From NCBI GenBank assembly GCA_030679035.1, contig JAUXTH010000189.1, positions 62,001 through 126,000 of the forward strand: 64,000 nucleotides of DNA, read 5' to 3'. This document shows positions 3,550 through 34,984 of this stretch, piece after piece. Positions within the stretch are counted from its first letter, which is position 1. The number at the start of each line of letters is the position of its first letter. The DNA is from Methylobacter sp. Its GTDB lineage: Bacteria > Pseudomonadota > Gammaproteobacteria > Methylococcales > Methylomonadaceae. The translations under genes and the position numbers were made by a program. The notes beneath the pieces are model-generated. The model was given only the letters and a program-made list of their open reading frames with translations, was not told where the DNA came from and made no database searches.

Positions 3550-3596
3550 AATTGTGGGATGAATGGTTTATTGAAATGGTGGTCATTTTATATCCA

Positions 3597-3729
3597 TCGC
3601 ACATTATTGTCGGTACCTTCGTTCCCTCTCCTGCTGGACAACTGCACGGATGCAGGAGGTAGAGCAACGCAGGAGCAGTTGCCGAGAGGGTTAGGGTGAG
3701 GAGATTTAATAACCGACAATGATGTGCGA
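3597..3729. repeat. MITE-like element with 18-bp terminal inverted repeats
   Basis: TCGCACATTATTGTCGGT at 3597-3614 is matched in inverted orientation at 3712-3729 with one mismatch, enclosing a 133-bp non-coding unit. The interior has a further inverted pair (CCCTCTC...GAGAGGG) and GC-rich sequence unlike the AT-rich flanks. No ORF is present. It fits a small non-autonomous mobile element or a structured intergenic repeat between lgt and rhuM. I could not define a target-site duplication. Confidence 0.55.
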
Positions 3730-3764
3730 ACACTATATTTGTCTTATTGTATCTTTAGCCACAT

Positions 3765-3791
3765 CTACCAGCCTAATAAGATTTGTCTCTC
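3765..3791 (+). repeat. 27-bp direct repeat, left copy (partner at 10438-10464)
   Basis: The sequence starting CTACCAGCCTAATAAGATTT is repeated in the same orientation at 10438-10464 with a single mismatch at the 21st base (G here, A there). The surrounding sequences do not match. I saw no further copy in the window. The two copies bracket rhuM, the STAND gene, the toxin-antitoxin pair, the cytochrome gene and the DUF2272 gene, so they may be junctions of a 6.7-kb insertion. Confidence 0.7.
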
Positions 3792-3880
3792 AGGCCTCGT
3801 GTTTGCATACTCGATTTACCGCTTGAATCTTCTTATTTATTCTCAATTTCCGACTGGCATTAGAATTCATCAGCAATTAT

Positions 3881-4909: not shown

Positions 4910-4993
4910 TGGTTATTCCTATAACCGTTTAAATATAGGATATGCTGAGTTCGACTCATACATATTTCACGATTTCTTACACTTTGGCGAGTT

Positions 4994-7249
4994 TTAGCCC
5001 CTATCAAATAGATCATCTATTTCATCGATAGCAAGTATCGTTGGTCCTTCTAATCTTGGCTCATTTTCTTCGTGTAAATGTTGAAAATAATCAGACAACT
5101 CTTGAGTTACATCATACGATTCCAAGATACTACTAACATCGTCCGCGCAAAAATTAACACCAAGATCTACAAGCTCCTTTTCGATTAACTTCTTCAACTC
5201 ATTGCCAGCAGCTCTATCATCCTCATATTCAACCATCGAAAACGCTAAGTTCACATCAATAAATTCAGAAAAGTTATCCGACACCACTTCGATTACATGC
5301 TCTTTTACTAATTGAACTATCTCCTTATATCCTGTCGTGGCCTCCGGGATCACCAATAAAAGCGATGATATAGCTCTCATTTCGGTGTACGAACCAACAA
5401 TATCAATGTTGCTTGAGATGAAACTCAATGCCTGCTCTGAAGTTACGATGCTTTGCTCAACACCCCACTCAACAATCTCGAACGAATCATCCGTTGCTTC
5501 TTCCCTGCCTTCATTGATAATAAAAAAAATGGCAGCATGAAAGGCCGCCGAGACATTACTCTCAAAGCCGCCGCAGCCTCTATACACGTCACAAAGTGCT
5601 GAAACATACGCAACGCTTACGCCGCCAAAATATTTCTCTGCTAAATGTTCAATTAACACATCACAAATCGACTTTGCGTCCTCTTTAGACAGGCGGCGAT
5701 CAGCCTGAAGACTGCGCAGGGTAATCAAAGATCGGAGCGTTCTGAGGCTTTGCATTCCAAGACGAAGCGCGACAACGTCTCCGGCATAACGCTCTAACAC
5801 GTAATCACCAATCGACGGATTAAACAAATCGATGATCGAAGGACCTTGGGGTGAGACAGTGCGATTAAGAAAAGAACCAGTAAGCAACCGAATATTTGAC
5901 TGAAACTCGCGCTGCCTACCGTGAAGGTTCTGGTTTTCAGGCAGTGCTAAAAAACGGTGGTACGCATCAGAAAGGATATTTTCACCAAGCGCGTAACCAT
6001 TCAGCACTACTAATAATATGATGGCGCGACCAAAATCATCCTGTTGTGCATTGAAAGGGTTTTCCCAAACTTGGGATGGATTTGTTAGCGAACGAACAAT
6101 GTGATCCCAATAGTCATCTGGCGGGCATGTTTCAAGTCTCGTCGTATCTGTGATGTAACTGATCAGACGAGGATTGAAATTTTTATGAGCAATAACTGTT
6201 CGGTATCGGCGGACATAATAGAGTTGCTCAATATATTCGTTTCCCAAATCAGAATGCCAAATGTGGTTATAGAGAATTTGTGCTTTATCTAGCTCCGTCA
6301 GGGATCGAATTCGAAGCTCATATTCGTTTTTCTGAACATTACCGTGTTCAAAATTATCAATTAAGAATTTTCCTTGATTGAGAATGGTGCTTCTTGAAGT
6401 CAAGACAAAACGCTTGTTCTTATTTGTTGCTATTCGTCGAATAAACTGCATGATCTGATTTCCTTCGTGCCCCTTAAGTGCTTCCAAGTAGTTGCGCCCC
6501 AAGAAATCATCAAAGTAAATAATCTGCCTGCTTTCAGGATCAAAGGCCGACTCCGCTTCTCGAATGTCGTCGGCAACTTTTAGATAAGCAAATCCATGAG
6601 TGACATAATGTAAGCATAAGTGGTCGGCCAGTGTGGTTTTCCCAACTCCAGGCTCACCAGTAATGATCACTACACCTAGTCGATCTAATAAATTGAGTGC
6701 AGCCTCATGGTTGGCTGTCACAACATATCGAGAGGAAGAACGAATTATTTCTTCAAGTGAGAAAGCGCTTCGTCCCATAATTGCATTATTAAAAATGTGA
6801 CCTAGAACTGTGGAACTATGAAGCCAAAGCTTATAGTGCCGTTGCTCAATGTGAGCTTTATCTTTGAGCAAATCATTTAGGTCTTCTTTACCGTAAATGT
6901 CGCTTTCGGATAGAACATACGGTGAAAGTGCACGATGAATTGCTTTTTTGTTTGCACGTGAAAGTGGGTTTGAGACCGCTAATAGATAACGATGCGGCTT
7001 AAGTGTATCGAGTTTTGGTTTTTCGTCCTTGTTTAACGCTCGAATAAGTTGCGTTAATGGAGTGTTGCTCCAGTGCTTGCACTGTAAAACTACCTCTTTG
7101 CCTTGATCGGTAAAATAACGACCGTCAACACCGCCATCTTTACCGGCTTTGAATCGCTCGAAACGGCAGCCTTGAACCTCACCAAGTAGATCGGCGCAAA
7201 GAATCTCGAATTCTTTGTCATTTAGCGATTTGAAATCGTAATCCGTCAT
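4994..7249 (-). CDS. Mrr-type nuclease fused to STAND NTPase (nSTAND3-like)
   Basis: 751-residue predicted antiphage-type STAND protein. Residues 1-60 look like an Mrr-family PD-(D/E)XK endonuclease core: E14 in the first helix, GGVDG with D42, and the strand VVLQCKHW giving the Q56-x-K58 pair. An ATPase follows: Walker A GEPGVGKTT at 198-206, Walker B IIYFDDF at 243-249 and a sensor-like RFVLTSRS further on. The C-terminal 400 residues are helical and would be the sensor arm. Known relatives (Avs and nSTAND3 proteins) detect phage proteins and then activate the nuclease; that role is inferred here. Base composition is AT-rich relative to the flanking core genes. rhuM follows 84 bases downstream. 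Confidence 0.85.
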   Translation of the reverse strand: MTDYDFKSLNDKEFEILCADLLGEVQGCRFERFKAGKDGGVDGRYFTDQGKEVVLQCKHWSNTPLTQLIRALNKDEKPKLDTLKPHRYLLAVSNPLSRANKKAIHRALSPYVLSESDIYGKEDLNDLLKDKAHIEQRHYKLWLHSSTVLGHIFNNAIMGRSAFSLEEIIRSSSRYVVTANHEAALNLLDRLGVVIITGEPGVGKTTLADHLCLHYVTHGFAYLKVADDIREAESAFDPESRQIIYFDDFLGRNYLEALKGHEGNQIMQFIRRIATNKNKRFVLTSRSTILNQGKFLIDNFEHGNVQKNEYELRIRSLTELDKAQILYNHIWHSDLGNEYIEQLYYVRRYRTVIAHKNFNPRLISYITDTTRLETCPPDDYWDHIVRSLTNPSQVWENPFNAQQDDFGRAIILLVVLNGYALGENILSDAYHRFLALPENQNLHGRQREFQSNIRLLTGSFLNRTVSPQGPSIIDLFNPSIGDYVLERYAGDVVALRLGMQSLRTLRSLITLRSLQADRRLSKEDAKSICDVLIEHLAEKYFGGVSVAYVSALCDVYRGCGGFESNVSAAFHAAIFFIINEGREEATDDSFEIVEWGVEQSIVTSEQALSFISSNIDIVGSYTEMRAISSLLLVIPEATTGYKEIVQLVKEHVIEVVSDNFSEFIDVNLAFSMVEYEDDRAAGNELKKLIEKELVDLGVNFCADDVSSILESYDVTQELSDYFQHLHEENEPRLEGPTILAIDEIDDLFDRG

Positions 7250-7339
7250 AGGTATTTATGATTCCTTAATTATCTAAAAAGATTCTTTTTCGGCGACAAA
7301 GAACATTTTCTGAGCAAGTTAAAAAAGTCAGGTACTGTT

Positions 7340-7359
7340 ACGTGTCGCGAATGACACGT
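7340..7359. repeat. Inverted repeat between tacT-like gene and STAND gene
   Basis: ACGTGTC (7340-7346) and GACACGT (7353-7359) flank a six-base loop. In the minus direction the hairpin is followed about ten bases later by a run of six T, so it may end transcription of the toxin gene, or act as an operator upstream of the STAND gene, whose start is at 7249. The sequence alone does not decide. Confidence 0.4.
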
Positions 7360-7405
7360 TACAAATATGCTGTGGTTCTTCACAAGTACGACGTTTACTT
7401 AGCTA

Positions 7406-7918
7406 TCAATCAGGCTCTGCCAAAATTAATCGAATTGTTGCTATCGTCATAAACAGAGTCATCGGTTGCAAAGGCGATTCCACGAAACCACGTGAAAGGT
7501 AGAACTGCTTGGTTTGGTCGGAAAGCGCATGAACCAATAGGGCAAACACTCCGGCATCACCAGCGACGTTGACTGCCCGTAGCATCGCGTCGCGTAGTAG
7601 TGCCTGACCTATTCCCTGATTGTGGTAGCGCTTATCGACGGCGAGTCGGCCCAGCAGCAGGACTGGCAACGGGTTGGGCATGTTACGCCGCATCGTCTTG
7701 GCTGCCGCCTCGTGGCTGATCGCTCCGGCCGACAGACTGTAGTAACCTATAACATCTGCACCGGCACACAACACGAAGCAGCGGGAAGCGCCGGAGGCAT
7801 GATTCTTAAACGCGCGTTTTTTGAGCCATTCGTTTAGGGATGATTCGCCGCTGTCAAATTCCGCCAGCTCTTGATCAGCCGTGATCGGCGCGGGCGGTGT
7901 GAAATCAAGCGCGCTCAT
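7406..7918 (-). CDS. GNAT acetyltransferase toxin (TacT/AtaT-like)
   Basis: 170-residue GNAT-fold protein, likely the toxin of a type II pair that acetylates charged aminoacyl-tRNA. The acetyl-CoA loop is visible as LAVDKRYHNQGIGQALLRDAML, preceded by a beta strand with GYYSLSAG, and the family's C-terminal FYLSRGFVESP supplies the conserved tyrosine. The start at 7918 gives an ATGA overlap with the antitoxin stop (7915-7917); an upstream in-frame ATG at 7927 is possible but would overlap further. The pairing with a DUF1778 antitoxin is the standard TacA-TacT layout. Target tRNA cannot be read from sequence. Confidence 0.9.
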   Translation of the reverse strand: MSALDFTPPAPITADQELAEFDSGESSLNEWLKKRAFKNHASGASRCFVLCAGADVIGYYSLSAGAISHEAAAKTMRRNMPNPLPVLLLGRLAVDKRYHNQGIGQALLRDAMLRAVNVAGDAGVFALLVHALSDQTKQFYLSRGFVESPLQPMTLFMTIATIRLILAEPD

Positions 7919-8202
7919 TTCTCCCAAGGCGCTTTGGTCTTGAGTAGCCGGCGTAGTTTGTCAGTCGGTGGCAATGGCTGATCGAGCAGTGCCTGAAATT
8001 TAGCAAAGGTGCCTTCATCGACGGTGAAGAATGCTTGGTCGAGCAGCACGTCTTCCGCTTCACGACAGGCGGCTTCAAGCATAAAATCTGAGCGGCTGCG
8101 GCCTAGGCGACTTGCGGCTTGGTCGATAAGATCGCGCTGTCTGGCCTTAGCGCGGATGTTGATGGAAACGGAAGCCGCTTCTTTGGTTTGTGTATTTGGC
8201 AT
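7915..8202 (-). CDS. DUF1778 antitoxin (TacA-like)
   Basis: 95-residue antitoxin with an N-terminal ribbon-helix-helix DNA-binding domain (SVSINIRAKARQRDLIDQAASRLGRSRSDFMLEAACREAEDVL) and a C-terminal tail that would wrap and neutralise the GNAT toxin. It starts at ATG 8202 behind AAGGAG (seven bases upstream) and overlaps the toxin start by four bases, so the two are translationally coupled. The nested inverted repeats just upstream are the likely binding site for autorepression by the antitoxin-toxin complex. Confidence 0.92.
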   Translation of the reverse strand: MPNTQTKEAASVSINIRAKARQRDLIDQAASRLGRSRSDFMLEAACREAEDVLLDQAFFTVDEGTFAKFQALLDQPLPPTDKLRRLLKTKAPWEK

Positions 8203-8204
8203 GG

Positions 8205-8257
8205 CTATACTCCTTTGTATGCAGCCTGAGCATACATTATTGTATAGAAGGTTACAA
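8205..8257 (-). promoter_or_regulatory. Promoter and nested operator of the DUF1778/GNAT pair
   Basis: On the minus strand, -35 TTGTAA (8257-8252) and -10 TATGCT (8234-8229) are 17 bases apart. The -10 lies inside an inverted repeat TGTATGC-N7-GCATACA (8216-8236), and an outer pair CTATAC/GTATAG (8205-8210 and 8241-8246) is centred on nearly the same base. This fits a ribbon-helix-helix operator that blocks polymerase. Confidence 0.65.
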
Positions 8258-8494
8258 CACAGGCAGCCCTATTTCCCACGCTCCGCTCCCATCGTTGTAA
8301 ACAAGTATTTCAAAGCACGTCAGGCTATACTGCTGGCGACCGCAAATCCATTCCGACCAGATTTGTGCCGGAATGACGGTATAGCGCATTACTGTTTTTA
8401 AATAATATGTGTCTAACTTAACTGGTAAAATTGATGCTGGAAATGGAAGAAGCTGGAAACTCTTTTACAAGCATAGTTTTTTGGAGCCAAAACC

Positions 8495-9346
8495 ATGTCA
8501 GATAATTATCGTACTCGCCAAACACTTTCCAGACTCTGCGCTCTGCTGCTCTATTTCATCGGGTTTTCATGTTATTCCTCTTCACTAACATTCGTTGACA
8601 ATGGCCATTTCGTCAAGATGATGGAAATCGATGAACTGGTTCGAACCGGCGGAACAAAGATGTTAACCGTGAACAACCCGACCGATTCGAGAATCAAATC
8701 TTATCAAGGCGTTTCGTTAATCCCGTTGTTGGACGCCGTTTTCAATTCAAATTGGAAAGACCGCGACGCGGTTAAATTTACAGCATCGGACGGATACCAG
8801 CCTATCATCCCCATTAGCGTCATCCTCAAGCACAACGGGATAATCGCTATAGGCGAAAACGGTCAACACGGATTTTCACAGCTGCTTGGAAACAATGGAG
8901 AGACTGTCGATCCGGGGCCATTTTTTTTGGTGTGGGAAAATATCCAAGACATCGCCGCCAAAAATGAGCCTTGGCTCAGTTGGCCGTGGCAATTAACGAC
9001 CATCGCATTAACCTCATTCGAGCGGGAATATCCACAATCTACGCCGCCCTCCGCCAGCCAGGAATCTGTTAAAAAAGGTTTTTTGGCATTTCGGCAACAT
9101 TGCATAAAATGCCATGCCATTAATGGTGACGGCGGCAATATCGGACCGGAACTCAATTATCCCGTCAGCGTTACCGAATACTGGCAGCCTGAATGGCTGG
9201 TCAGATTTATCGCCGATCCGCAAAGCGTGCGGGCAAACAGTAAAATGATCCCGTTTTACCGTGATGTCGGTAATCGAGGGGAACTCATCGCCGATATTGT
9301 CGAATATTTGAAAGTGATGGCAAGCAGAAAACCGTTGAATCGTTAG
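8495..9346 (+). CDS. Periplasmic c-type cytochrome with N-terminal substrate-like domain
   Basis: 283-residue exported protein. A hydrophobic segment at residues 12-26 is a probable signal or anchor. Residues 30-170 resemble the compact domain of sulfite-oxidase-like molybdopterin proteins (SYQGVSLIPLLDAVF, then FTASDGYQPIIPISVIL), without an obvious catalytic cysteine. Residues 190-283 are a class I cytochrome c with CIKCH at 203-207 and a probable distal ligand Met251 in SKMIPF. It probably transfers electrons in the periplasm; the partner is unknown. A DUF2272 lipoprotein gene starts 15 bases downstream, suggesting one transcript. Confidence 0.75.
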   Translation: MSDNYRTRQTLSRLCALLLYFIGFSCYSSSLTFVDNGHFVKMMEIDELVRTGGTKMLTVNNPTDSRIKSYQGVSLIPLLDAVFNSNWKDRDAVKFTASDGYQPIIPISVILKHNGIIAIGENGQHGFSQLLGNNGETVDPGPFFLVWENIQDIAAKNEPWLSWPWQLTTIALTSFEREYPQSTPPSASQESVKKGFLAFRQHCIKCHAINGDGGNIGPELNYPVSVTEYWQPEWLVRFIADPQSVRANSKMIPFYRDVGNRGELIADIVEYLKVMASRKPLNR

Positions 9347-9360
9347 AGGAGTCGATTGCC

Positions 9361-10098
9361 ATGCCTTATTTTCTACTCAGTATTGTTTTGCTTGTTAATG
9401 GCTGTGCTGTGCTAAAACAAGGCGAATTGCCTGCCATTACAGCCGATGACAATGTCAGTCCATCGTTTGTTATTCCTGACGTTAGAGATCGGATGCTGTA
9501 CCTTGCCCGCCAGGAATGGGAATTGTTCGGCCGTCCCGAAGTCAATTACGATATTGAGCCGCCTTCACTCACTTATCCAAGTGAAGCAACACATGGTCAT
9601 GAAACTCTACCGCCTTTTTTCAGCCGGATCTTCATGTATTGGTATGCTGTGACAGACCTACCGATAATCGGGCATGAAGGGGAGATTAGACCCTGGTCTG
9701 GCGCTTTTATTGTCTGGCTAGCTCGAAATGCAGGCGTGCCTGAAAGCGATTTGCCTTCTACCGTTTTGCATTGGGATTATATTGAGCATGTGATGTCGGC
9801 CGGTTCCGAAGACAGGTTTGTAGGCCATGACATCAACACTTATGCCCTTAAGCCCGGAGACATTATTTGTACGCCGCGGGGTGAAGCTTTTATCCAGTCA
9901 ATTCACAGCTATAACGATCTAAGGCGTGGGGCTTACCACTGTGATTTAGTGGTTGCACAACGGCCTGGGGAGCTTGATGTAATAGGCGGCAATGTCCTGG
10001 ATGCGGTCACCTTAGCTCATATCAAACTGGACGGAGCGGGAAAGGTGCTGCCCACAAAAACCAGGCCATGGTCGTTGGCGATAGAACAGCGAAATTAA
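9361..10098 (+). CDS. DUF2272 lipoprotein
   Basis: 245 residues. The N-terminus has a short lipoprotein signal with the lipobox-like LLVNGC, so Cys15 would be acylated by Lgt. The body matches the DUF2272 family: WSGAFIVWLARNAGVPESDLP, HWDYIEH, ALKPGDIICTPR and YHCDLVVAQRPGELDVIGGNV, a pattern that recalls NlpC/P60-like or CHAP-type papain folds, with the conserved C/D/H residues spread in that order. Enzymatic activity is not established for this family. It follows the cytochrome gene by 15 bases and precedes a good terminator. Confidence 0.8.
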   Translation: MPYFLLSIVLLVNGCAVLKQGELPAITADDNVSPSFVIPDVRDRMLYLARQEWELFGRPEVNYDIEPPSLTYPSEATHGHETLPPFFSRIFMYWYAVTDLPIIGHEGEIRPWSGAFIVWLARNAGVPESDLPSTVLHWDYIEHVMSAGSEDRFVGHDINTYALKPGDIICTPRGEAFIQSIHSYNDLRRGAYHCDLVVAQRPGELDVIGGNVLDAVTLAHIKLDGAGKVLPTKTRPWSLAIEQRN

Positions 10099-10186
10099 AA
10101 TACGAGTATTCAAGAATGGATGCATCAATCAACCAGGCAAACTATAAGGTCAGCCTGGTTGTTAAAGTGTCGTTAGATTTTTAAGT

Positions 10187-10210
10187 GTCAGTCAAACTGA
10201 CGGGGTTTTT
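10187..10210 (+). terminator. Rho-independent terminator after the DUF2272 gene
   Basis: GTCAGT-CAA-ACTGAC followed by GGGGTTTTT. It lies 90 bases after the DUF2272 stop. A weaker hairpin (AACCAGGC/GCCTGGTT, 10131-10160) precedes it. Confidence 0.65.
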
Positions 10211-11153
10211 CACTGACTCTGTCATTCGACAACAATTGTTAGATGACCAATTTAGTGAAATGGTGGCCATTGAAAAATAACTTCTTTTTCAACTTTCGTG
10301 TCACGCGAGAATGTTGTTTTGTCATAATAAATGAAAACATCCGGAACCTATGCCATTAATTGTGAAAAATTTCTGTGTGCCGAGCAGCACAGATTGGTGG
10401 GTATCATCCAAACTCATATCAGATCTTTTTGTTTATACTACCAGCCTAATAAGATTTATCTCTCGAGCAAAGACAGATTTATATATGGCTACTTTCAATA
10501 TGCGCGTGGTGGCAAGGCAAGCCTTAGTGAAAAAAGGAACATTAAATAAGTAAGCTGTTTTTCAATTTTAGTATCACCCCGACCATGTCGTTTTGACATA
10601 AATAATGAAAAATTTCTGTATCTGTGATACTAATGGTGCAAAATCAGTCCACCAAATTTATATGAGAAGAAACCCGGGGAGTCGCTGTTTTTGCGAAAGA
10701 TTTTTCGGCCGCGGACCAAAAATCGGCAAAAATTACGCGACTGCTATCGCCTGCGGCGGCCCCGATTCGTCCTGCGGCCTTTGCTAACCATCCGAACGAC
10801 AAACTCGGTCGCAATAATATCTCCATTTGCCTGCTGCTGCCCAGGGCGGTTTGAACAAGTCTCCTTCGAAGCTGGTGTGGCCGGGAATGATTGCATTGGT
10901 AGAGCCGCAGACCCTGGCTGTAAGGGTTCGCGCCATAGCGTATGTGGCCGCTGGTGGTCGTAACCGCGACCGACGACGGTGCGGCCACCAAGCTACCTCG
11001 CCGCCACAAACTTGACCTAAAATTGCATAAGAAAAAAACCGGTTCGCCTCTCCGCATCATGGCGGATTGCTGCACGAACCATACATGCCGTACGACAGTG
11101 AGGGTATTCTGCCCCGGCACTCGTGCCGTGGCTAGTTAACAGGAGGTTCTGAA
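10211..11153. other. Long intergenic region with degenerate repeats; no convincing gene
   Basis: The first half (to about 10680) is AT-rich and has two related stretches, about 10286-10335 and 10557-10610, sharing a TTTTTCAA..TTT..T.TCAC core and a TTTTG.CATAA tail; both are followed by AATGAAAA. The right copy of the 27-bp direct repeat lies between them. From about 10690 the composition turns GC-rich, matching the operon downstream. Several overlapping frames stay open there on both strands, a common effect of high GC; a minus-strand stretch (10700-11000) looks faintly like a decayed transposase zinc-finger region but I would not annotate it as a gene. Confidence 0.5.
10438..10464 (+). repeat. 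27-bp direct repeat, right copy (partner at 3765-3791)
   Basis: Same orientation as the left copy and identical except for one base. It sits in AT-rich non-coding DNA after the DUF2272 gene. Confidence 0.7.
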
Positions 11154-11948
11154 ATGTCAACAATGTTCCACGCCATCTTGCGCATTATTTTTTTTCTTCT
11201 GTGCTTCTATAAACCCAACGCCCTGGCAGATGATCAGGCCGGCGTTCCCGTTTTGAATTACCACCGATTCGGCCCCAGCGCGGCAGATAGCATGACGGTA
11301 ACTACGCCGGTGTTCGAGGCGCAATTGAAGTGGATCAAGGACAACGGCTACACCGTCATACCCTTGAAGTCCTTGGTGGACTATCTGCGCGGTAATAGTC
11401 CGCCACCGCCTGCCAAATCCGTGGTGATCACTGCAGATGACGGCCACAAATCGATCTATACCGAGATGCTGCCCATTGTGCGCCGATACCAGATCCCTAT
11501 CACCCTGTTCATTTATCCTTCGGCCATCTCCAACGCCTCTTACGCCTTGACTTGGGATCAGTTAATGGAATTGCAGCAGACGGGTCTTTTCGATATCCAG
11601 TCGCACACCCTCTGGAGTCCCAACTTTAAGAAAGACCGAAAGAGACTCCCCTTTGATGCCTATCAAGCATTTGTGAAAGAACAGCTCGAAAAGTCCAAGG
11701 CTATACTAGAGAAGAAACTGGGGAGAACAGTGGATCTTTTGGCTTGGCCCTTCGGGATTTATGATGACGACCTGGAAAAGGCGGCCGAAAAAGCGGGCTA
11801 TGTCGCCGCTTTTAGTATTGACCGCCGCCCTGCCGATGTCACCGAAAAAATCATGTCTCAACCGCGCTACTTAATGGTGAACGGCGATGATACCAAGGGC
11901 TTTGCCTCTATAATATCGCCGGCCGGACCGCAACGAAGAAAACGGTAA
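11154..11948 (+). CDS. NodB-type polysaccharide deacetylase, exported
   Basis: 264-residue carbohydrate esterase family 4 protein with a signal peptide (residues 1-25, ending LADD). Motif 1 is VVITADDGHKSIY, containing the catalytic-base and metal-binding aspartates; motif 3 is LLAWPFGIYDD. Motif 2 reads DIQSHTLWSPNF, where the usual second histidine (SHTxxHP) is a serine, so one metal ligand may be missing and activity may be reduced. Its arrangement next to a DUF4015 glycosidase-like gene recalls PgaB, which joins a deacetylase and a glycosidase in one protein. AGGAGG at 11141-11146 is a strong ribosome site for ATG 11154. First gene of a GC-rich three-gene operon. Confidence 0.85.
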   Translation: MSTMFHAILRIIFFLLCFYKPNALADDQAGVPVLNYHRFGPSAADSMTVTTPVFEAQLKWIKDNGYTVIPLKSLVDYLRGNSPPPPAKSVVITADDGHKSIYTEMLPIVRRYQIPITLFIYPSAISNASYALTWDQLMELQQTGLFDIQSHTLWSPNFKKDRKRLPFDAYQAFVKEQLEKSKAILEKKLGRTVDLLAWPFGIYDDDLEKAAEKAGYVAAFSIDRRPADVTEKIMSQPRYLMVNGDDTKGFASIISPAGPQRRKR

Positions 11949-12005
11949 AGACTAACTAGAACGCCGTCCGGCGTGGCGGCTTCAGCAACTGATGGGGAAG
12001 TAGTT

Positions 12006-13298
12006 ATGAACAAACAAGGAGGGCGTTTTCTGATCCTGATTGGAGCCATGTTTTGGGCCGCGGCCGCGCCAGCCTATGAAGGTAAGGTGATGGATGCAGA
12101 GACGGGGGCACCCATTGAGGCGGCGGTGGTCACCCTGGGCGATCAGGCGGTGCGCACCGATAAACAGGGCGCCTTTCGTTTGGAAGGGAGCGGAGAAAAG
12201 CTCAAACTTCGGGCCGCAGGCTATACGCGGCGCGAAATTGCCACCGCAGAGTTGGGCAGTCCCGACGCGGACATCGCCCTGACGCCCTTCACGGTAAAGG
12301 GACTCTATCTCACCGTCTACGGCATCGCCAGCGCCAAGCTGAGGGGCGATGCCCTGAACACCATCGAAAGGAACCATCTCAACGCCCTGGTCATCGACGT
12401 CAAGGGCGATCGGGGCTTTATCCCCTTCCGAGTGGATCTGCCGCTGGCCGAGCAGATCGGCGCGCAAAACACCATTCTGGTCAAGGACATGAAGTCGCTC
12501 TTGGCCAGCCTCAAAGAAAAAAAACTCTACCTCATCGCCCGCATCGTGGTTTTAAAAGACGATCTGCTGGCGAGGGCTAGACCGGACCTTGCTGTCAAAA
12601 AAGGCGGCAGCGTATACACAGACCGTGAAAATCTACGATGGGTGGATCCCTTCAGCCGGGAAGTCTGGGACTACAACATTGCCATTGCCAAGATCGTCGC
12701 AGAACTAGGCTTCGATGAAGTCCAGTTCGACTATGTCCGCTTTCCCGATACACGAGGGGGGGCGTTTTCCAAACCTGCCACGGAAGAAAGCCGCACCCAG
12801 GCCATCACCGGCTTCCTGGAAGCTGCTTACCGGGCTCTCACGCCTTATAACGTCATGGTCGCCGCAGATATCTTTGGCTATGTCTCGTGGAACACAGACG
12901 ATACCGACATCGGCCAGAAAATCGCTCCCATCACCAAGGTGGTGGACGTGGTCTCCCCCATGCTTTATCCTTCGGGTTATCACCTGGGTATACCCAGATA
13001 CAGCAATCCGATTGAACACCCGTACCAAATCGTCTACTTGTCCTTGAAGCGAGCCCAGGAGCGCACCGGCGCCTCGCCCTTGCGTTTCCGCCCGTGGCTT
13101 CAGGCCTTCCGCGACTATGCATTCCACGGCGGAGATTTCAAAGAGGAGAGAATGCGCATACAGATCGAGGCCTCGGACGATTTTGGGGCCAGCGGCTGGA
13201 TGTTCTGGAATCCGCGTAACATTTATCCCCAGGGGATTTTTTCCAACATCGGCCATCGTAATGAAGCTCAGAAAGAGACTCCACTAATAGTTCAATGA
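12006..13298 (+). CDS. DUF4015 putative glycoside hydrolase with N-terminal CarboxypepD-like domain
   Basis: 430 residues after a signal peptide (MNKQGGRFLILIGAMFWAAA...). Residues about 22-95 form a carboxypeptidase-regulatory-like beta sandwich (YEGKVMDAETGAPIEAAVVTLGD). The rest is a TIM-barrel-type putative glycosidase of the DUF4015 family: NALVIDVKGDRGFIPF, WVDPFSREVWDYNIAIAKIVAELGFDEVQFDYVRFPDT, VMVAADIFGYV, VDVVSPMLYPSGYH and SGWMFWNP. The D-V-K-D and FDEVQFDYVRFP segments carry the likely acidic active-site residues. The in-frame ATG at 12006 is preferred to 11973 because it begins a clean signal peptide. It overlaps the next gene by ATGA. Confidence 0.85.
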   Translation: MNKQGGRFLILIGAMFWAAAAPAYEGKVMDAETGAPIEAAVVTLGDQAVRTDKQGAFRLEGSGEKLKLRAAGYTRREIATAELGSPDADIALTPFTVKGLYLTVYGIASAKLRGDALNTIERNHLNALVIDVKGDRGFIPFRVDLPLAEQIGAQNTILVKDMKSLLASLKEKKLYLIARIVVLKDDLLARARPDLAVKKGGSVYTDRENLRWVDPFSREVWDYNIAIAKIVAELGFDEVQFDYVRFPDTRGGAFSKPATEESRTQAITGFLEAAYRALTPYNVMVAADIFGYVSWNTDDTDIGQKIAPITKVVDVVSPMLYPSGYHLGIPRYSNPIEHPYQIVYLSLKRAQERTGASPLRFRPWLQAFRDYAFHGGDFKEERMRIQIEASDDFGASGWMFWNPRNIYPQGIFSNIGHRNEAQKETPLIVQ

Positions 13299-15730
13299 GA
13301 AATAAGTTTTTAATGGCGACGTTTACAATTCCCCGGATTTATTCCTGTCTGGTCTTTACTGCGGTCGTGACCCTTATCGGCGCCGTTTTGTTCGGTGGCC
13401 TCACCGCTTGCGTCCGCATGCCGCCATCTGGCAGTGATATTGAAGCTACATCGGCAGAACCATCACTCGGCGAAATCGAGAGTCCGCGCTTTGCCGGCCT
13501 CGGTGAGGCGGCGCAACAGGAAATCGCCGCCGGACGCTTGGCCGGGGCCGTCATCCTGGTGGGCCATCAGGGCGAGATCGTCTATCGCAAGGCGTTTGGC
13601 CTCCGGGCTGTACAGCCCAGCCCACAGGCCATGACGGCAGACACGATTTTTGATCTCGCCTCCCTAACCAAGGTTGTGGCAACCGCCACTGCCATCGTGC
13701 AATTGGCCGAGCGCGGGGCTTTGGACCTGGACCATCCGGCGGCCGGCTACTGGCCGGCGTTTGCCCAAAACGGCAAGGAGCGCATCACCCTCCGTCAGCT
13801 CCTGACCCACACCTCGGGTTTGCGGGCCGAGGTGAATTCCAAGATTCGCTGGTCGGGCTACGAGGGGGCCGTGGAAGCCGTTGCGGCTGACCGGCCGGTC
13901 GAAACGCCAGGAACTGGGTTCCGCTATAGCGACGTCAACTTCATCGTGCTGGGCGAGATTGTCCGTCGTATTTCCGGGCTGCCATTGGACGAGTATTGCG
14001 CCCGGAACATTTTCGGGCCGCTGGGGCTGAAAGACACCTCCTTCAAGCCGCCGCTCCGGGGGCGCCCGCGTCTGGCGCCTTCCGACCTGCGCTGGGGAGA
14101 AGTCCAGGACCCCACAGCTTACCGCATGGGAGGGGTGGCAGGACACGCGGGCCTGTTTTCCACGGCGGACGACCTAGCCGTGCTTGCCCGGATGCTCCTT
14201 GGCGGCGGCGAGTGGCGCGGCCGGCGTCTCCTGACTCCCGCCTCCGTTGCCGCCCTGACTAAGGCGCACTCCATTCCCGGCAATTCAACTCTGCGAGGCT
14301 TGGGCTGGGATATCCGCTCGCCCTACAGTAAGGAACATAGTACCTGGTTTCCCAAGGGATCGTTCGGCCACACCGGTTATACCGGCACTTCCCTATGGAT
14401 CGATCCAAAGTCCGACATCTTCCTGATCATTCTGACCAGCCGCCTACACCCCGACGGCAAGGGGACGGTCAAGCCCTTGCGGGCAAAGGCCGCTGCCGCG
14501 GTGGCCGCTGCCGTGCCCATGGGACCACCCGACGAAGCTTTCGCTCCGGACAGCGCCGGCCCGGAAGTGGTCATGTCGGGTTGGGGGCAAGCCGACGGCG
14601 TGGAGCATGTGCAGACCGGGCTTGAGGTGCTCACGGCAGCTGAATTCGCCCCACTGGTAGGCAAGAATATCGGCATTATCACCAACCACAGCGGCATCGA
14701 CGCTGCCGGCAACTCTACGATCAACCTTCTGCACCGCGCCCCCGGCGTCAAGGTGCGTGCCATTTTCAGCCCGGAGCACGGTCTGACCGGGGAACGCGAC
14801 GAGAAAATCGCCTCCGGCCGCGACCTTGCTACCGGCTTGCCGGTTTATAGTCTCTACGGCGACACTAAAAGGCCCACCTCCAAGATGCTCGAGGGCTTGG
14901 ATGCCCTAATTTACGACATCCAAGACGTGGGCACGCGATTTTATACGTATATCACCACCATGGCCTATGCCATGGAAGCAGCGGCATCCGTCGGCCTCGA
15001 CTTCTACGTACTGGATCGTCCCAACCCCATCAACGCCTCTATCGTTCAGGGCCCGGTCATGGACCGCACGTTGAAGTCCTTCACCGGTTACTTCCCATTA
15101 CCTGTGCGCTACGGCATGACAGCCGGAGAACTGGCCAGACTGTTCAACATCGAAAACAGCATCGGTGCCAAGTTGCATGTCATTCAGATGCAAGGTTATC
15201 AACAAGGATCCTGGTTCGACGAGACCGGCTTACCATGGATCAATCCCTCGCCTAACATCCGTTCACTGACCCAGGCGATCCTGTACTCCGGGGTGGCCAT
15301 CGTTGAGTCCGCCAACCTGAGCGTCGGGCGTGGCACCGAGACGCCGTTTGAGGTGGTCGGCGCGCCCTGGATTTCTGGAGACCGGCTGGCCGATTATTTG
15401 AACCAGCGAAAAATCCCCGGGGTGGCCTTCGTATCTGCGACCTTCGAGCCCCGGTCGGACCGATTCCGATTGCAACGGTGCAACGGAGTGCGTCTGCGGC
15501 TGACGGATCGGGCTGTATTCGACGGGCCGATGCTGGGTCTTGAGCTGGCATCCGCGCTGTACCGTCTGTATCCGGGAACATTTGACATTGACCGGACGCT
15601 CAATATGTTCGGTACACCTGAGGTCCTTGATGCAATTAAAAAAGGTAAAGAACCGCAAGATATTCGCCAAAAATGGCAGTCCAGGCTGGATGAGTTCCGG
15701 TTATTACGCGCCAAGTACCTACTCTATTAG
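13295..15730 (+). CDS. Serine hydrolase (class C beta-lactamase fold) fused to NamZ-like DUF1343
   Basis: 811 residues. The N-terminus has a membrane or lipoprotein-type signal (VLFGGLTAC, lipobox-like). Residues 60-410 are a penicillin-binding/beta-lactamase-fold serine hydrolase: catalytic SLTK (FDLASLTKVV), YSD (GFRYSDVNF) and HTGYTG. Residues 440-811 match DUF1343, the family of NamZ exo-beta-N-acetylmuramidases: GKNIGIITNHSGID, IFSPEHGLTGE, YGDTKRPTSKMLEGLDALIYDIQDVGTRFYTYITTM, DRPNPI and WINPSPNIRS. A protein with both would trim peptidoglycan peptides or sugars outside the cytoplasm. It overlaps the DUF4015 gene by four bases, so the three products are probably co-expressed. GC-rich throughout. 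Confidence 0.88.
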   Translation: MRNKFLMATFTIPRIYSCLVFTAVVTLIGAVLFGGLTACVRMPPSGSDIEATSAEPSLGEIESPRFAGLGEAAQQEIAAGRLAGAVILVGHQGEIVYRKAFGLRAVQPSPQAMTADTIFDLASLTKVVATATAIVQLAERGALDLDHPAAGYWPAFAQNGKERITLRQLLTHTSGLRAEVNSKIRWSGYEGAVEAVAADRPVETPGTGFRYSDVNFIVLGEIVRRISGLPLDEYCARNIFGPLGLKDTSFKPPLRGRPRLAPSDLRWGEVQDPTAYRMGGVAGHAGLFSTADDLAVLARMLLGGGEWRGRRLLTPASVAALTKAHSIPGNSTLRGLGWDIRSPYSKEHSTWFPKGSFGHTGYTGTSLWIDPKSDIFLIILTSRLHPDGKGTVKPLRAKAAAAVAAAVPMGPPDEAFAPDSAGPEVVMSGWGQADGVEHVQTGLEVLTAAEFAPLVGKNIGIITNHSGIDAAGNSTINLLHRAPGVKVRAIFSPEHGLTGERDEKIASGRDLATGLPVYSLYGDTKRPTSKMLEGLDALIYDIQDVGTRFYTYITTMAYAMEAAASVGLDFYVLDRPNPINASIVQGPVMDRTLKSFTGYFPLPVRYGMTAGELARLFNIENSIGAKLHVIQMQGYQQGSWFDETGLPWINPSPNIRSLTQAILYSGVAIVESANLSVGRGTETPFEVVGAPWISGDRLADYLNQRKIPGVAFVSATFEPRSDRFRLQRCNGVRLRLTDRAVFDGPMLGLELASALYRLYPGTFDIDRTLNMFGTPEVLDAIKKGKEPQDIRQKWQSRLDEFRLLRAKYLLY

Positions 15731-15950
15731 GACCTTTTTCCTGGTCCCATACAACTAAGGTTGGAAAACGGCTTTCAGTTTTTTCCACTAATCAGCGTGG
15801 CGTTGCCATCCACTAAAAATTCGCATGCTTTTATTATCAATAAGATAGAAATTAATTTTGGAAAATTTTAACGCTCTTTTTGTATAAAATTGGCAAAATT
15901 TCGCCGCCGTTTTCCATTCCAGGGCCTCTATCTCAAACGGGCACAAGCCT
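15731..15950. other. Intergenic tail, probably includes one end of the IS remnant
   Basis: Immediately after the NamZ-fusion stop is a short inverted pair (GGACC...GGTCC, about 15731-15747). From about 15880 the sequence (AAATTTCGCCGCCGTTTTCC, then GGGCCTCTATCTCAAACGGG) has the look of an IS terminal region leading into the transposase remnant. I could not locate a matching inverted repeat at the other end. Confidence 0.35.
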
Positions 15951-16369
15951 TTAAGCCGAACTCGTTTCGGTGAATAACATTTTTCTGGTCAAAAACAGCA
16001 AGAGTAGGCTTGGTTTCATCGTTTTGGTGATCAAAATCAGCGCAAAAAATAGCCTCATCCAGAGACTGGAATTCCAAGCCACGGCTGCCATCAATAGATT
16101 GATGCAGTCATCGGCTACGCCCTTGAGGAAATTTCTCACTAACCGAAAGTCGGACTTTAAATGACCAATGATCGACTCAATGGTTGCCCGGCGCTGGCAG
16201 CGCTTGCGCTTTTTGTCGCATTTTAGCGGAGAAACCGGCAAAAATGATTTGTGTGTCGCCAACTATTTTGGGACTACGGTAACCATGGTCGCCAACACCG
16301 GTTTTCACGGCTTTTTCGCGACTGTTTTGGCAACGCGTCCGCACTTCCGTCAAGGTTTTGCTGTTTCGA
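15951..16369 (-). pseudogene. IS5-family transposase remnant, frameshifted and 5'-truncated
   Basis: Reading on the minus strand from about 16369, one frame gives SKTLTEVRTRCQNSREK, then KTGVGDHGYRSPKIVGDT, and the neighbouring frame continues with HKSFLPVSPLKCDKKRKRCQRRATIESIIGHLKSDFRLVRNFLKGVADDCINLLMAAVAWNSSLWMR. The second part is the characteristic C-terminal region of IS5-type DDE transposases, including the final glutamate (ATIESIIGHLK). A frameshift lies near 16240-16260, and the N-terminal half of the transposase is missing. The upstream edge joins directly to a rhuM fragment at about 16367-16370. Confidence 0.8.
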
Positions 16370-16433
16370 ACCGGCATTCTACTCGGGTTTTACCATCTTA
16401 GGTTTCGTATAGCAGAAATTCACCTGGATACAT
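16367..16433 (-). pseudogene. rhuM 5' remnant, cut by the IS5-type element
   Basis: The minus strand from ATG 16433 reads MYPGEFLLYET, then a TAA stop, then DGKTRVECRF, where the intact rhuM at 4909 reads MIPGEFLLYETEDGKTRVECRF. The nucleotide match to the intact gene holds over about 65 bases with a handful of differences, then ends abruptly at the transposase. Besides the truncation, codon 12 is a stop (TAA for GAA). It lies 38 bases after the stop of the 1381-residue STAND gene on the same strand, the same relative position that intact rhuM has behind the other STAND gene. Confidence 0.85.
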
Positions 16434-16470
16434 TGATTGCTCTCCAAGCTAAACACCCTTTGTCGCCAAT

Positions 16471-19400
16471 TCAAGAAGTCAACGTGGCAGACTCTATCTC
16501 CAAACACACCGGGTGGCGTGGATGTGAAATATCCAGTACTACAGAACGTACTTTGATAGCGTCATTGGAGTTTTGTTGGGCTTGTTTTTCAGCATCTTGT
16601 CGAAGTCCGGCAATAGATTTTCTTTTTGACTGACCAAACCAGCCAACTAAATAAATTCCATGGGTTCGGGTAACATCATCCAAATATTGAGCAACTAATT
16701 GCTCGGCAATATCTTTTGCCGGTTTGGCTTTATTATCTGGTTTAACTTCAATGACCACACAAAGATTCGGCAGGTTTGTATTTCCATTTGGAGCAACGGT
16801 TTGAATCATTAAATCGGTTCGCTCACCGATTCCAGAATCCCGCCAATTTTTAATCTCGACTTCTCGGTCAATGATAATGCGCCGTTCACGCCATTCCCTT
16901 TTCAAATAAAACTTCAAAAAATCTGATAAACGCTGCTCGGAAATAGGTGTACCTGTTTTTTCATTCCAAAGAAAAACGGCTAAAGGCGGCGAGCCGTGTT
17001 GGGCTTCATGCGCAAAACGTTGTAAAGCTGCTTCTACGGCATCCATCAATTCCCGACTGTTGCGAACGACCGAAGTGTGATCATCCGACAATAATGTTAG
17101 TGAATCGGTAAAGGACAGTTGAGTCCGCTGTTTTTGCCAAAGATTCTTACAGGCTTTCGCTTTGGCACGGATTAACCATGAATCGTCAGGATAGGCTTGG
17201 CAAATTCGGTCTAGTTCTTTTATTGATTCTAAGTTTCCTAATTTTGAAAGCCAGCCGATCATACTGTCTCTAAACCTAGCCGCATCATGTCTTGGTGTGA
17301 CTGTGTACCCCTGATTGTTGACCGGCGGGTCTTCCGAAGGAGGAAACAAAATCCTTAGACGATCATATAACCAGCCCAGTTGACTCACATCCAAATTTGA
17401 ATAAATTTCGTCCGAATATCCGCCGGAATAGGCAACAGACAAGATAACTTCCCGTGCTAATTCAACACCTTCTGTCAAAAACCGTTGAATATCGTCCCAA
17501 GCTTGCACTGGAGCATGTTGAAACAGAACTATTGCCGTAGAACGGCGATTGTCGGTATCGGGCTCGTTTTTCAACCAATAGATTAGTTGTTCGATAATAT
17601 TGTCCGCATTATTCTGAATCAAAAACTCAGCTAAACTTAAGCGGCTATTAAATTTCCAATTTGTTGCATTTAATTGACTGTCGGCCAGTTTCTGCAAAAA
17701 ACTCGGATGCCAAATTTCGCGACAAGATTGCAATAAGTGAACAGAACCAGTTTCCCCTTGTTGATCGATTACCTTCAATACCACAGCGTCAAACGCTTCT
17801 GGAACCAATGGTCTTACTTGGCGGAACAGTTGCCGCTGGGTTTCCGGTTCAAAGAAATGGGTGACCACCACTAAACACCAACGCCTTAAGTGTTCTCGGG
17901 GTAAGCGCTGCAAACAATTCGTCTCAGCGAGAATGGCAACAGCTAGTCCGCAAGCTGCTTGAGCAATCGTGCGTGAATTTTGCAGTAATACCTCATCCTC
18001 GGGTGGCATTGCTTGTTGTAGGTAATTTAAAGCAACCTCGGCAATTCGGTTGCGCAGACTGTCATCGGCTTTTTGCCAACCCGGTAGGGAGTCTGGATCA
18101 TTTGGGAATATTTGAGAACCATCTTCTTGTAGCGCTAAGGATGAAATCAAATATTCCCAACGGCTAACATCACCAGCTTCGCAAGCTGCTAGATCAATTT
18201 GAATATAAAATTCAGGTGGATTGGGTAGATTACTTTGAGCTTCTGAGCGCTGATTAAGTCTCAACATTAACTCTTTATTCTCAAAATATTGTTTTCGGTA
18301 ATCAATGGTTGCTTGGCTAGTTAAATCTGTAGGCTTAACCAACCATTCAAAATGCTCAGCTAATATGAGATCAGGTTTAGTAGCCTCTAAACCGGCTCTG
18401 ATTAATACTTCTTCAACGGCATTGCGATTTTCATGTCGTCCAATGAGTAGATTAAGTGAAGCGGCAATGACATGACGTTCAGATTCTGAAGAAGTGGTGT
18501 TATCAAACCACTCAAATAACCACATGCAATCTTCTTCTCTAAAACAATCGATAGAGAAAAATTTCCAAACCTCGCTTGCATCAATTTGTTTTATTAGTTC
18601 AGTTAGAACAATACGTCGCTTGGAAACATCAACGAAAAAGTCTTGCCGCTCGTCTTTTCCTAAATCATCAAATAATTGGTCGCAATGACTACGCAGTACT
18701 TTGATCGCATCAACTAAAGCCTCGGTTACACCTTGCTCAGTCAAATATCCAAAAGCCTTGGCTAATAACTTACTTTTCAGTTTGTTCGAAGCGAACTGAT
18801 CGTGGCTTATTGGCGCGTATTTAGCTATCCATTGCAATCCAACAATTAGCCCATCAGTATTCAACTCATTTAAAAACAAGTCCTGATGAATCTGGTAGCG
18901 AAGATCGCCAGATACATTTTCAAGAAAACCCGGTGAAATTTGCTTAAAAAACGCTTCCGCCCCCATCAAACGCAAACCAAGCGTTGAAAGAGCTATGGCT
19001 TTAAACGATGCGTTTTGTACAGATTCTGCTAACGGGATTAAAAGCCTTTTCGCATCATCACCCATGTTATCCATATAGGAGGCAGCCAACTTACGCAGTT
19101 CCATATCTTCCTGCTGATTTAAAGCCACCTCCGCCAATACCGTCCCTAACCCTTGCAACTCACAAGCATTGACCATTTTAATTGCCAAGCTACGGGCAAC
19201 CAATGGGTTGCGTTTATCGATAATAAAACTACGCAGCTTTTCTTCCAAACCCGGATATTTAAGCTTGGCAAGTCTTTGCCATCCGTAAGAAGCTCGTTGC
19301 TCTTCTACGGCAAGCTGTAACAATCCATCAACTAAAACCGGTAAGTCGCTCTGCTCTAGTGTGGCAAAGTCGGCTTCTAATGCGGCTTCTGGTTCATGTT

Positions 19401-20616
19401 TAACCAGCCAAACCAGAAATTCTGAATCGAGCGCAGCCAGCCATGCTACTGTCTCATGTAGGTCTGGGAGCAAACGTTGGCTATCGGGGTGTAACAGTAC
19501 TTTTAACTTTTGCACGATAGATACGTTACTATTTGCAATGAACCACGCCGTCAAAAACTCGCCGAAAGTGCGACTGGCAAATTGAAAGCGTTCGCCGTCA
19601 AGCCGGGCAAAGATGCCGGTTTGTTCTAAAGTTTCACTGACGGCTGGTTCAGTGATTTCAGGCTGTGGTTTTTTGCTAGTAACCTGCTTGGCATCAAATA
19701 ATCCGCTTGAACACTCAACACTTGGGCCGTTCCAAATGCCATTACAGCCTTGCAGGATATAACCCAGTGCAATTCTAGCGGCGGTTTGAAAACGCACGTC
19801 AGCTGAGATTTGACTTTTAATCGTAGAGCTTCGTCGTTCTGGGCTGTCTGCGCAAAGCAGTTTTAAGCCCTTTTCGAAAATTTCGGTTCGTTGGCTGGGC
19901 AGCTCGCCTTTTTGGTAAAGTCCCAAGATGAATTGCAGGGTAACCGGTAATGCAGCCAGTTGCTCAATATGCCGCTCAGCAATGGTTTTGAGCAGTGGCT
20001 CGGCATCAATGCTGCTAAGCTGGGCAGCAGTACGAACATCATCTTCAAGCAATGGGCATAAGCGCCATGTTTCAACCGTTGTTTTGGCTACTGAGTTCCA
20101 CCGATCTTGAAATGCGGTTTGCAATTGTTCCGGCCAATATGATGGCCGACAGGTAATTCGAACAAAAACTCGTTCTGGATTATTGATTTTATTTATAAAT
20201 CGATCAATCAACCAGTTTGCCGGACTTGGCAATGTGCATTCATCAAGACCATCAAGCAGTATCCATAATCGCCGACCTTGGTCAACTAAATGAAACTTAT
20301 CGTCATCCAATAACTGTTTTTCATCACCAGCAACAGCTGTTTTCAGATCAAAGAATATTATTAAATCGTCAGGCTGCTGCTCAGAAAGACGATTTTTCTC
20401 ATCGCTCAGAGTTTGACTTTTCCCATAACCCGGTTCGCCCAAGAGAACCAAAACCGGTATTTCAGTTAAATCAGCCAGCTCCTTGGGAACAGCAGGATAA
20501 AAGGGGCTATATTCTGCGTGTGGTAACTGTAGAAACCCTCCTTGAACAAATTCTTGATAATGGACATTCCCTTCCGGGAACCAATAACGTTTCCAAGGGA
20601 ATATAGTCTTATTCAT
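16471..20616 (-). CDS. Giant NACHT-like ATPase with helical repeats and C-terminal PD-(D/E)XK nuclease motif
   Basis: 1381 residues. The N-terminal ATPase has Walker A GEPGYGKS (60-67) and Walker B LWILLDGLDEC (117-127), the D-G-L-D-E form typical of NACHT/STAND proteins, and RVFVRITCRPSYW as sensor. Residues about 330-1150 are a long series of alpha helices with HEAT-like character and no catalytic motif, a plausible ligand-sensing solenoid. The C-terminus has R-T-D1268-L-M..., then VVIEVKPDN with E1290-x-K1292, followed by AEQLVAQYLDD with Q1306/Q1310, fitting a PD-(D/E)XK nuclease core. The start is 21 bases after the gyrB stop, with no obvious ribosome site, so it may rely on transcription through gyrB. 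AT-rich. Predicted abortive-infection type defence protein; function inferred. Confidence 0.82.
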   Translation of the reverse strand: MNKTIFPWKRYWFPEGNVHYQEFVQGGFLQLPHAEYSPFYPAVPKELADLTEIPVLVLLGEPGYGKSQTLSDEKNRLSEQQPDDLIIFFDLKTAVAGDEKQLLDDDKFHLVDQGRRLWILLDGLDECTLPSPANWLIDRFINKINNPERVFVRITCRPSYWPEQLQTAFQDRWNSVAKTTVETWRLCPLLEDDVRTAAQLSSIDAEPLLKTIAERHIEQLAALPVTLQFILGLYQKGELPSQRTEIFEKGLKLLCADSPERRSSTIKSQISADVRFQTAARIALGYILQGCNGIWNGPSVECSSGLFDAKQVTSKKPQPEITEPAVSETLEQTGIFARLDGERFQFASRTFGEFLTAWFIANSNVSIVQKLKVLLHPDSQRLLPDLHETVAWLAALDSEFLVWLVKHEPEAALEADFATLEQSDLPVLVDGLLQLAVEEQRASYGWQRLAKLKYPGLEEKLRSFIIDKRNPLVARSLAIKMVNACELQGLGTVLAEVALNQQEDMELRKLAASYMDNMGDDAKRLLIPLAESVQNASFKAIALSTLGLRLMGAEAFFKQISPGFLENVSGDLRYQIHQDLFLNELNTDGLIVGLQWIAKYAPISHDQFASNKLKSKLLAKAFGYLTEQGVTEALVDAIKVLRSHCDQLFDDLGKDERQDFFVDVSKRRIVLTELIKQIDASEVWKFFSIDCFREEDCMWLFEWFDNTTSSESERHVIAASLNLLIGRHENRNAVEEVLIRAGLEATKPDLILAEHFEWLVKPTDLTSQATIDYRKQYFENKELMLRLNQRSEAQSNLPNPPEFYIQIDLAACEAGDVSRWEYLISSLALQEDGSQIFPNDPDSLPGWQKADDSLRNRIAEVALNYLQQAMPPEDEVLLQNSRTIAQAACGLAVAILAETNCLQRLPREHLRRWCLVVVTHFFEPETQRQLFRQVRPLVPEAFDAVVLKVIDQQGETGSVHLLQSCREIWHPSFLQKLADSQLNATNWKFNSRLSLAEFLIQNNADNIIEQLIYWLKNEPDTDNRRSTAIVLFQHAPVQAWDDIQRFLTEGVELAREVILSVAYSGGYSDEIYSNLDVSQLGWLYDRLRILFPPSEDPPVNNQGYTVTPRHDAARFRDSMIGWLSKLGNLESIKELDRICQAYPDDSWLIRAKAKACKNLWQKQRTQLSFTDSLTLLSDDHTSVVRNSRELMDAVEAALQRFAHEAQHGSPPLAVFLWNEKTGTPISEQRLSDFLKFYLKREWRERRIIIDREVEIKNWRDSGIGERTDLMIQTVAPNGNTNLPNLCVVIEVKPDNKAKPAKDIAEQLVAQYLDDVTRTHGIYLVGWFGQSKRKSIAGLRQDAEKQAQQNSNDAIKVRSVVLDISHPRHPVCLEIESATLTS

Positions 20617-20637
20617 TGAATATTAACTTTAAAAAAG

Positions 20638-24196
<3,559 letters not shown>

Positions 24197-34981: not shown

Positions 34982-34984
34982 ACC

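Follow-up and report, generated by a model that had tools for sequence, protein, structure and literature searches.

The gene P0001 lies in a 64,000-nucleotide stretch of Methylobacter sp. DNA (contig JAUXTH010000189.1, positions 62,001 to 126,000), which is called the window here and whose first base is position 1. It encodes a protein of 1381 amino acid residues (aa), in which a NACHT-type nucleotide-binding module, a long helical solenoid and a PD-(D/E)XK nuclease-like domain follow one another in this order. We consider it probable that P0001 is a single-protein, NLR-like antiphage sensor of reversed polarity, whose effector is the nuclease at the tail. This effector-last, NLR-like defence candidate is real and well formed, and it represents a new clade of a kind that database curators already recognise.

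Domain architecture of P0001

The open reading frame (ORF) starts with ATG, has zero internal stops and has the extent given in a preliminary description of this DNA, in which the strand, minus, was absent. The Walker A motif (GEPGYGKS) and the Walker B motif with DGLDE are at the residues reported there. G60, K66, D122 and D125 are identical in 64 of the 64 compared sequences, where it should be considered that the patterns used in the search for relatives partly select for Walker A; the four nuclease residues treated below are absent from those patterns. Moreover, an N-terminal motif specific to the clade includes R10 and W12 (64 of 64 sequences) and W8 (59 of 64). In the structure model, residues from about 250 to 420 form helices and a beta hairpin (336–346), and residues 1–486 match the NLRC4 entry 6b5b_B, in which residue 1 of P0001 already aligns with the part bearing the nucleotide-binding domain (chain residue 125 onward). 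The NLR-like succession of a P-loop nucleotide-binding domain, helical domains and a winged-helix domain is present in the model. The Pfam NACHT match is weak (E 8.1e-5, 23 bits, under the gathering cut-off of 26.7), and PADLOC gave two weak matches only. In the model a NACHT-type P-loop NTPase module makes up the N-terminus, in agreement with the preliminary description.

The long region of helical repeats proposed earlier is likewise found, the model being all-helical over residues 424–1160. Searched against Protein Data Bank (PDB) sequences, P0001 alone gave 0 matches and a profile of the NACHT-solenoid platform gave weak rows only, such as alphaRep/HEAT (around residues 515–559) and Hsp104; in Pfam, HEAT_2 appeared weakly, below the cut-off, in two homologues.

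The model of the C-terminal part (predicted local distance difference test 85.1, predicted template modelling score 0.81) has the order alpha-beta-beta-beta-alpha-beta and structurally matches restriction endonucleases, including BamHI, FokI and McrC, and also Can2 and Card1; VIA-align was used for a second look at the structure comparison. The residues named beforehand, D1268, E1290-x-K1292 and Q1306, are present in P0001, and all four occur together in 38 of the 63 homologues whose ORF has 1150 aa or more. Alignment A2 has them in 39 of 39 rows because its rows were picked for carrying them. Pfam gave only DpnII-MboI (0.049) and Phage ALC (0.099) on this part, both below the cut-off, and the nuclease profile gave two chance-level rows against PDB sequences, so the fold claim rests on the motif and the model. 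By both, the C-terminus has a PD-(D/E)XK fold with D, ExK and Q residues in order, as had been predicted from the letters. According to the models, P0001 has the plan of an animal inflammasome sensor, except that a predicted DNA-cutting domain forms its tail.

Relation to EruA and HyoA

The NCBIfam model EruA (NF058535) matches P0001 with an E value of 3.4e-55, residues 46–1346 corresponding to positions 17–1291 of 1318, and the EruA domain order with its C-terminal nuclease is found in P0001 by hmmscan, hhalign and the motif residues. A profile comparison of the P0001 clade with the EruA group spans 1297 columns, and three members of the P0001 clade (L048, L051 and L078) reach 267, 245 and 164 bits with EruA, respectively. 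A second protein of the same genome (L013; L162:6387-10391) is EruA over the cut-off (1039 versus 1000 bits), and the genome thus has tail-nuclease NACHT proteins of two clades; the L013 gene lies near an ORF resembling, by eye, an IS110-type transposase. The relative L029 is HyoA over the cut-off (1605 versus 1200 bits). The statement of three clades rests on a mixture-model tree of 36 of the 81 rows, in which the P0001 clade, the EruA group and the HyoA group are supported at 100/99, 99/99 and 100/100, respectively; the group labels are our own, four of the six 'EruA' rows being over the cut-off (L014 and L016 are not) and one of the four 'HyoA' rows (L029) having been checked. These comparisons indicate that P0001 shares architecture and ancestry with EruA and HyoA but sits in a third, separate clade. 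The EruA of PMC12839154 was rejected as the same protein, since the part of that paper concerned with it describes a different protein, a SlyA-type regulator.

Distribution of the relatives and exchange of the tail

Peptide patterns made from P0001 alone found no close homologues. Matches of any kind are sporadic in nearby genomes: they occur in four of 61 (its own genome counted), the other three being short and 22–25% identical, and in three of 369 genomes of the class, a figure that again includes its own; a full-length match at 29% is among the latter. An alignment-based scan of contigs yielded 95 relatives, of which 80 loci from many phyla were kept; one of them is L046, in a Methylomonas metagenome-assembled genome (MAG), at 61%. 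The differences between P0001 and L046 (0.24 per nonsynonymous site and 0.77, saturated, per synonymous site) indicate that the protein is under constraint. The L046 gene (7992-12110) has an in-frame stop before its nuclease part; the coverage in its contig name is 2.98, an assembly error is possible, and intact relatives exist elsewhere. Furthermore, 20 of 72,556 plasmid records match, five covering at least 80% of the query, and 16 of the 20 are typed conjugative. There was no match in 50,697 phage records, nor in IMG/VR with patterns from alignment A1.

After 17 of the 80 loci were dropped for shorter ORFs, the 63 with an ORF of at least 1150 aa could be sorted by their tails: 38 carry the nuclease residues D, E, K and Q, 21 have a different C-terminal stretch, and four (L046, L066, L069 and L089) are broken or end early. 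All 21 loci with a different stretch are cyanobacterial. Five of their tails are CHAT-protease-like and contain the motifs GHG and NAC (the two scanned match in Pfam at 3.9e-12 and 2.4e-13); seven were put down as membrane helices, six of which reach a 19-residue hydropathy of at least 1.8, the seventh (L090, hydropathy 0.66) running off the contig end; and nine are small domains that we call adaptors, none of the five scanned being over the Pfam cut-off. The Pfam scan covered 10 of these 21 tails. In addition, a Rhizobium plasmid relative, L041 (7983-12896), ends in a GT4-conflict glycosyltransferase (8.9e-113) and is close to genes for SIR2 and an AAA ATPase; four more Rhizobium plasmid records have a glycosyltransferase annotation at the match. 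On a quick tree of the platform only (81 rows), the tail labels need 13 changes, the minimum possible being four, a count to be read with the long-branch warning that this tree carries; in the same tree, CHAT and adaptor rows are sisters on very short branches. Among these relatives the tail is an exchangeable cassette on the NACHT-solenoid platform. The natural pairs L074/L091 and L082/L123, which have nearly the same platform and different tail modules, are a direct means of studying how the signal of a STAND sensor crosses a long solenoid and whether trigger and effector are independent of each other.

The gene and its setting between gyrB and lgt

The positions of the features are collected in Table 1. 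A PmoA/AmoA-family protein (PF02461, 5.6e-130) marks the genome as belonging to a methane oxidiser, and GyrB has 82% identity with its counterpart in a Methylomonas MAG. As previously reported, P0001 starts 21 bases after gyrB, the gap being 20617-20637. A palindrome, AACTTTTTTAAAGTT, lies in this gap, where no ribosome-binding site is obvious by eye; translation of P0001 may therefore be coupled or may start unusually. Promoter and terminator scans over 15600-21200 gave counts equal to those of shuffled sequence (9 versus 8.9 and 7 versus 6.2), and no statement on P0001 transcription is drawn from them; that the gene borrows the transcription of gyrB is plausible.

Table 1. Features of P0001 and of the surrounding island in the window
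Feature	Position	Strand	Basis
P0001, single-gene NACHT-solenoid-nuclease protein, 1381 aa	16471..20616	-	intact ORF; homologues; EruA model 3.4e-55
NACHT nucleotide-binding domain, about residues 1-250, without a separate preceding domain	19867..20616	-	
Walker A, residues 60-67, GEPGYGKS	20416..20439	-	sequence; G60, G65, K66 invariant (alignment A3, 64 sequences)
Walker B, residues 117-127, LWILLDGLDEC	20236..20268	-	sequence; D122, D125 invariant; model strand E117-122
Remainder of NACHT module, helical and winged-helix-like, about residues 250-420	19357..19869	-	model; match to NLRC4 entry
Alpha-helical solenoid, residues 424-1160, presumed sensor	17137..19347	-	all-helical model
Predicted PD-(D/E)XK core, residues 1227-1362: E1227 (helix), D1268, E1290-x-K1292, Q1306, Y1311	16531..16938	-	model and motif
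Inner insertion with P0001, 10.4 kb, between gyrB and older island part	10231..20637	.	95% identity to G018 DNA
Entire island, variable among strains, from gyrB to lgt, 17.1 kb	3550..20637	.	gyrB-lgt adjacency in relatives
gyrB, island border	20638..23076	-	homology
lgt (presumed name), island border	2758..3549	-	tblastn to relatives
thyA (presumed name), beyond lgt	261-1094		
Second defence candidate, Mrr-type restriction endonuclease and nSTAND3, PADLOC PDC-S73	4994..7249	-	935 bits; nSTAND3 2.4e-50; Mrr_cat 1.5e-8

The end of gyrB was located in seventeen relatives of the genus (G012 has no gyrB match), and 16 are informative, as the contig of L129 stops too soon. The gene that we take from its sequence to be lgt follows gyrB with a spacer of 2 nucleotides in nine of the 16 and after about 240 bases in one; in the remaining six other DNA follows, lgt being about 5.0, 8.1 and 8.8 kb away in three and not within 20 kb in one, while two contigs end first. 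In this genus lgt normally comes next after gyrB, and the space separating the two is a hotspot of variation (3550-20637 in the window; L127-L142, L146 and L156-L161). The insert of L160 contains genes for HsdR, HsdM and HsdS, L158 has a TIR protein about 11 kb downstream of gyrB, and the long ORFs of L156 and L157 have a SEC-C motif only and no Pfam match, respectively. Bases 8474-10230 of the window have 95% identity with a stretch of G018 lying immediately next to gyrB, which indicates that 10231-20637 with P0001 entered this site as an additional insertion. In L046, dnaA-dnaN-recF-gyrB is followed by a small nucleotidyltransferase ORF (7628-7918, NTP_transf_2 2e-8) and next by the homologue; two genomes thus share the location behind gyrB. 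The gyrB-lgt site can serve as a marker for finding variable and defence genes in this methane-oxidiser genus.

That P0001 is AT-rich, and hence foreign, as the preliminary description held, was rejected in that form: its G+C content (0.433) is near that of dnaN (0.430), dnaA (0.438) and recF (0.421), with gyrB at 0.477, and the third codon positions are lower (0.37, versus 0.54 in gyrB and 0.47 in dnaN). A foreign origin is supported by the variable island, composition being the weaker support. The sequence TTGTCGARTGACAC occurs once in each of three of 23 genus genomes (L134, L135 and L140), always at most 10 bases from the gyrB stop; the window has a copy with one mismatch at 10219-10232 on the minus strand, 10.4 kb further on (chance 0.78 at up to two mismatches). 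This sequence could represent an end of some site-specific element. TniQ is found in six of the 23 genomes, with none listed near gyrB in the five in which gyrB was located (that of G019 was not), and a Tn7-like element at the gyrB site is only a guess.

Within the inner insertion, 11154-15730 on the plus strand encodes a polysaccharide deacetylase, a DUF4015 glycosidase-like protein and a beta-lactamase/NamZ fusion; with up to 0.635 G+C per kb, versus 0.43 for P0001, it shows that the insertion is itself mosaic. Just downstream of P0001, 15951-16262 (minus strand) looks by eye like the end of an insertion sequence transposase and has no Pfam match. The cell-wall-like genes of the inner insertion argue against a plain defence island, but the part of the island on the lgt side does hold the PDC-S73 candidate and a RhuM protein. 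Across the origin, after mnmE, 31152-43485 encodes, besides a TrlF ATPase, a type I restriction set in which AlbA_2 (Schlafen-like) stands between HsdS and HsdM, so defence-type genes lie on both sides of the replication core. Beside 36 nuclease-type loci of the homologues no family occurs in more than four of 120 ORFs (thresholds Pfam 1e-6 and PADLOC 1e-15; there was no control set and no enrichment is claimed), and type III restriction, pAgo and DRT2 matched in single ORFs.

Proposed function and alternatives

According to the portions of PMC12169576 dealing with it, bNACHT25 has a nuclease that degrades DNA once activated; this analogy, together with EruA and HyoA by name, makes a role of P0001 in abortive antiphage defence likely. 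In the proposed mechanism the NACHT module would be an ATP-driven switch, the 740-residue solenoid both sensor and scaffold, and the C-terminal nuclease the effector. Resting P0001 would be inactive until a phage component, or a change caused by the phage, binds the solenoid; the NACHT modules would then swap nucleotide and assemble, the clustered tail nucleases would cleave DNA, and the infected cell would halt before phage production. Domain content, conserved motifs, kinship with EruA and HyoA, exchange of the tail and the island setting are computational findings; trigger, assembly, DNA as substrate and the abortive outcome are inferred.

Several points weigh against this mechanism. P0001 falls short of the membership scores of both named families (188 bits versus a cut-off of 1000 for EruA; 129 bits, 1.7e-37, versus 1200 for HyoA, NF058534), and it is NCBIfam that calls these families antiphage, the open-licence literature searched having yielded no paper on which the names rest. 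Tail swaps were seen only in cyanobacteria and one Rhizobium lineage, the nuclease fold does not discriminate a DNA from an RNA substrate, and the homologue neighbours are mixed and were counted without a control set. Moreover, the nearest neighbours of P0001, in the same inner insertion, are by Pfam cell-wall and sugar genes, not defence genes. For this last reason we slightly lowered our confidence in the mechanism and slightly raised the chance that P0001 is a weapon or addiction module, serving the mobile island against rival elements or its own loss more than the cell against phage. This still seems very unlikely. The stacked insertions at one site, the sequence recurring after gyrB and the conjugative typing of most matching plasmid records would fit such a module, but no antitoxin-like partner gene recurs among the homologue neighbours, none was recognised beside P0001, and anti-plasmid and antiphage roles are compatible.

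It is unlikely, too, that P0001 is a restriction-like enzyme, in which the NTPase and solenoid would recognise or move on incoming DNA and only that DNA would be cut, with no self-destruction. The structural matches to BamHI, FokI and McrC, the type I restriction set across oriC and the Mrr-type restriction endonuclease protein in the island are in its favour, but the NTPase of P0001 is NLR/STAND-like, not a helicase or translocase; there is no methylase among the scanned island neighbours, and no methylase family exceeds four of the 120 homologue-neighbour ORFs; and CHAT protease or membrane-helix tails on the same platform suit a DNA-specific recogniser poorly. Can2 and Card1 cut RNA and single-stranded DNA, or nick. 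Because both are among the structural matches, the sensor logic could be the same with a tail nuclease whose activity is RNA cleavage or DNA nicking rather than double-strand breakage. This variant is quite improbable in our judgement: matches to restriction enzymes for double-stranded DNA are equal or higher, although the fold alone does not decide. The reversed, tail-nuclease sensor is our preferred reading.

Comparison with known systems

In Avs (AVAST) proteins the effector comes first, before the STAND module, whereas in P0001 nothing precedes the nucleotide-binding domain, and no Avs model matched P0001 in PADLOC at E up to 0.1. EruA has the same order over its whole length and the same nuclease motif residues, but P0001 is in a separate clade with its own N-terminal motif (W8, R10 and W12). 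HyoA (model length 1430) likewise has NACHT, a long helical part and a C-terminal nuclease, the nuclease parts aligning at 96.3%, and is also in a separate clade. The bacterial NACHT proteins treated in the relevant sections of PMC12169576 have the effector at the N-terminus and the sensor at the C-terminus; bNACHT25 and bNACHT32 (clade 6) combine, like P0001, a NACHT switch with a PD-(D/E)XK nuclease, and there infection leads to DNA degradation, but their nuclease is N-terminal, the reverse of P0001. C-terminal GT4 effectors on STAND/NACHT proteins are already in print in the part of PMC8195603 on these fusions; this layout, with a predicted effector at the C-terminus, is that of L041, but the effector is a glycosyltransferase, unlike that of P0001. 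The preliminary description had proposed a distinct STAND architecture: the nuclease-last order does differ from the layout in PMC12169576, but as an architecture it is not new, being shared by EruA and HyoA, and the GT4 fusions had put effectors at this end before.

What P0001 contributes is a phylum-spanning clade with the opposite domain order, in which tail modules are swapped between closely related platforms. We tentatively suggest, with belief somewhat short of even, that EruA, HyoA and the P0001 clade constitute one class of bacterial NLRs with reversed order, whose NACHT and solenoid are constant and whose tail is exchanged among nuclease, CHAT protease, membrane, adaptor and glycosyltransferase modules. 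If this is true, effectors would be freed or brought together at the distal end of the sensor, not beside the NTPase ring, and the geometry of activation must differ from that of Avs, bNACHT25 and the animal NLRs.

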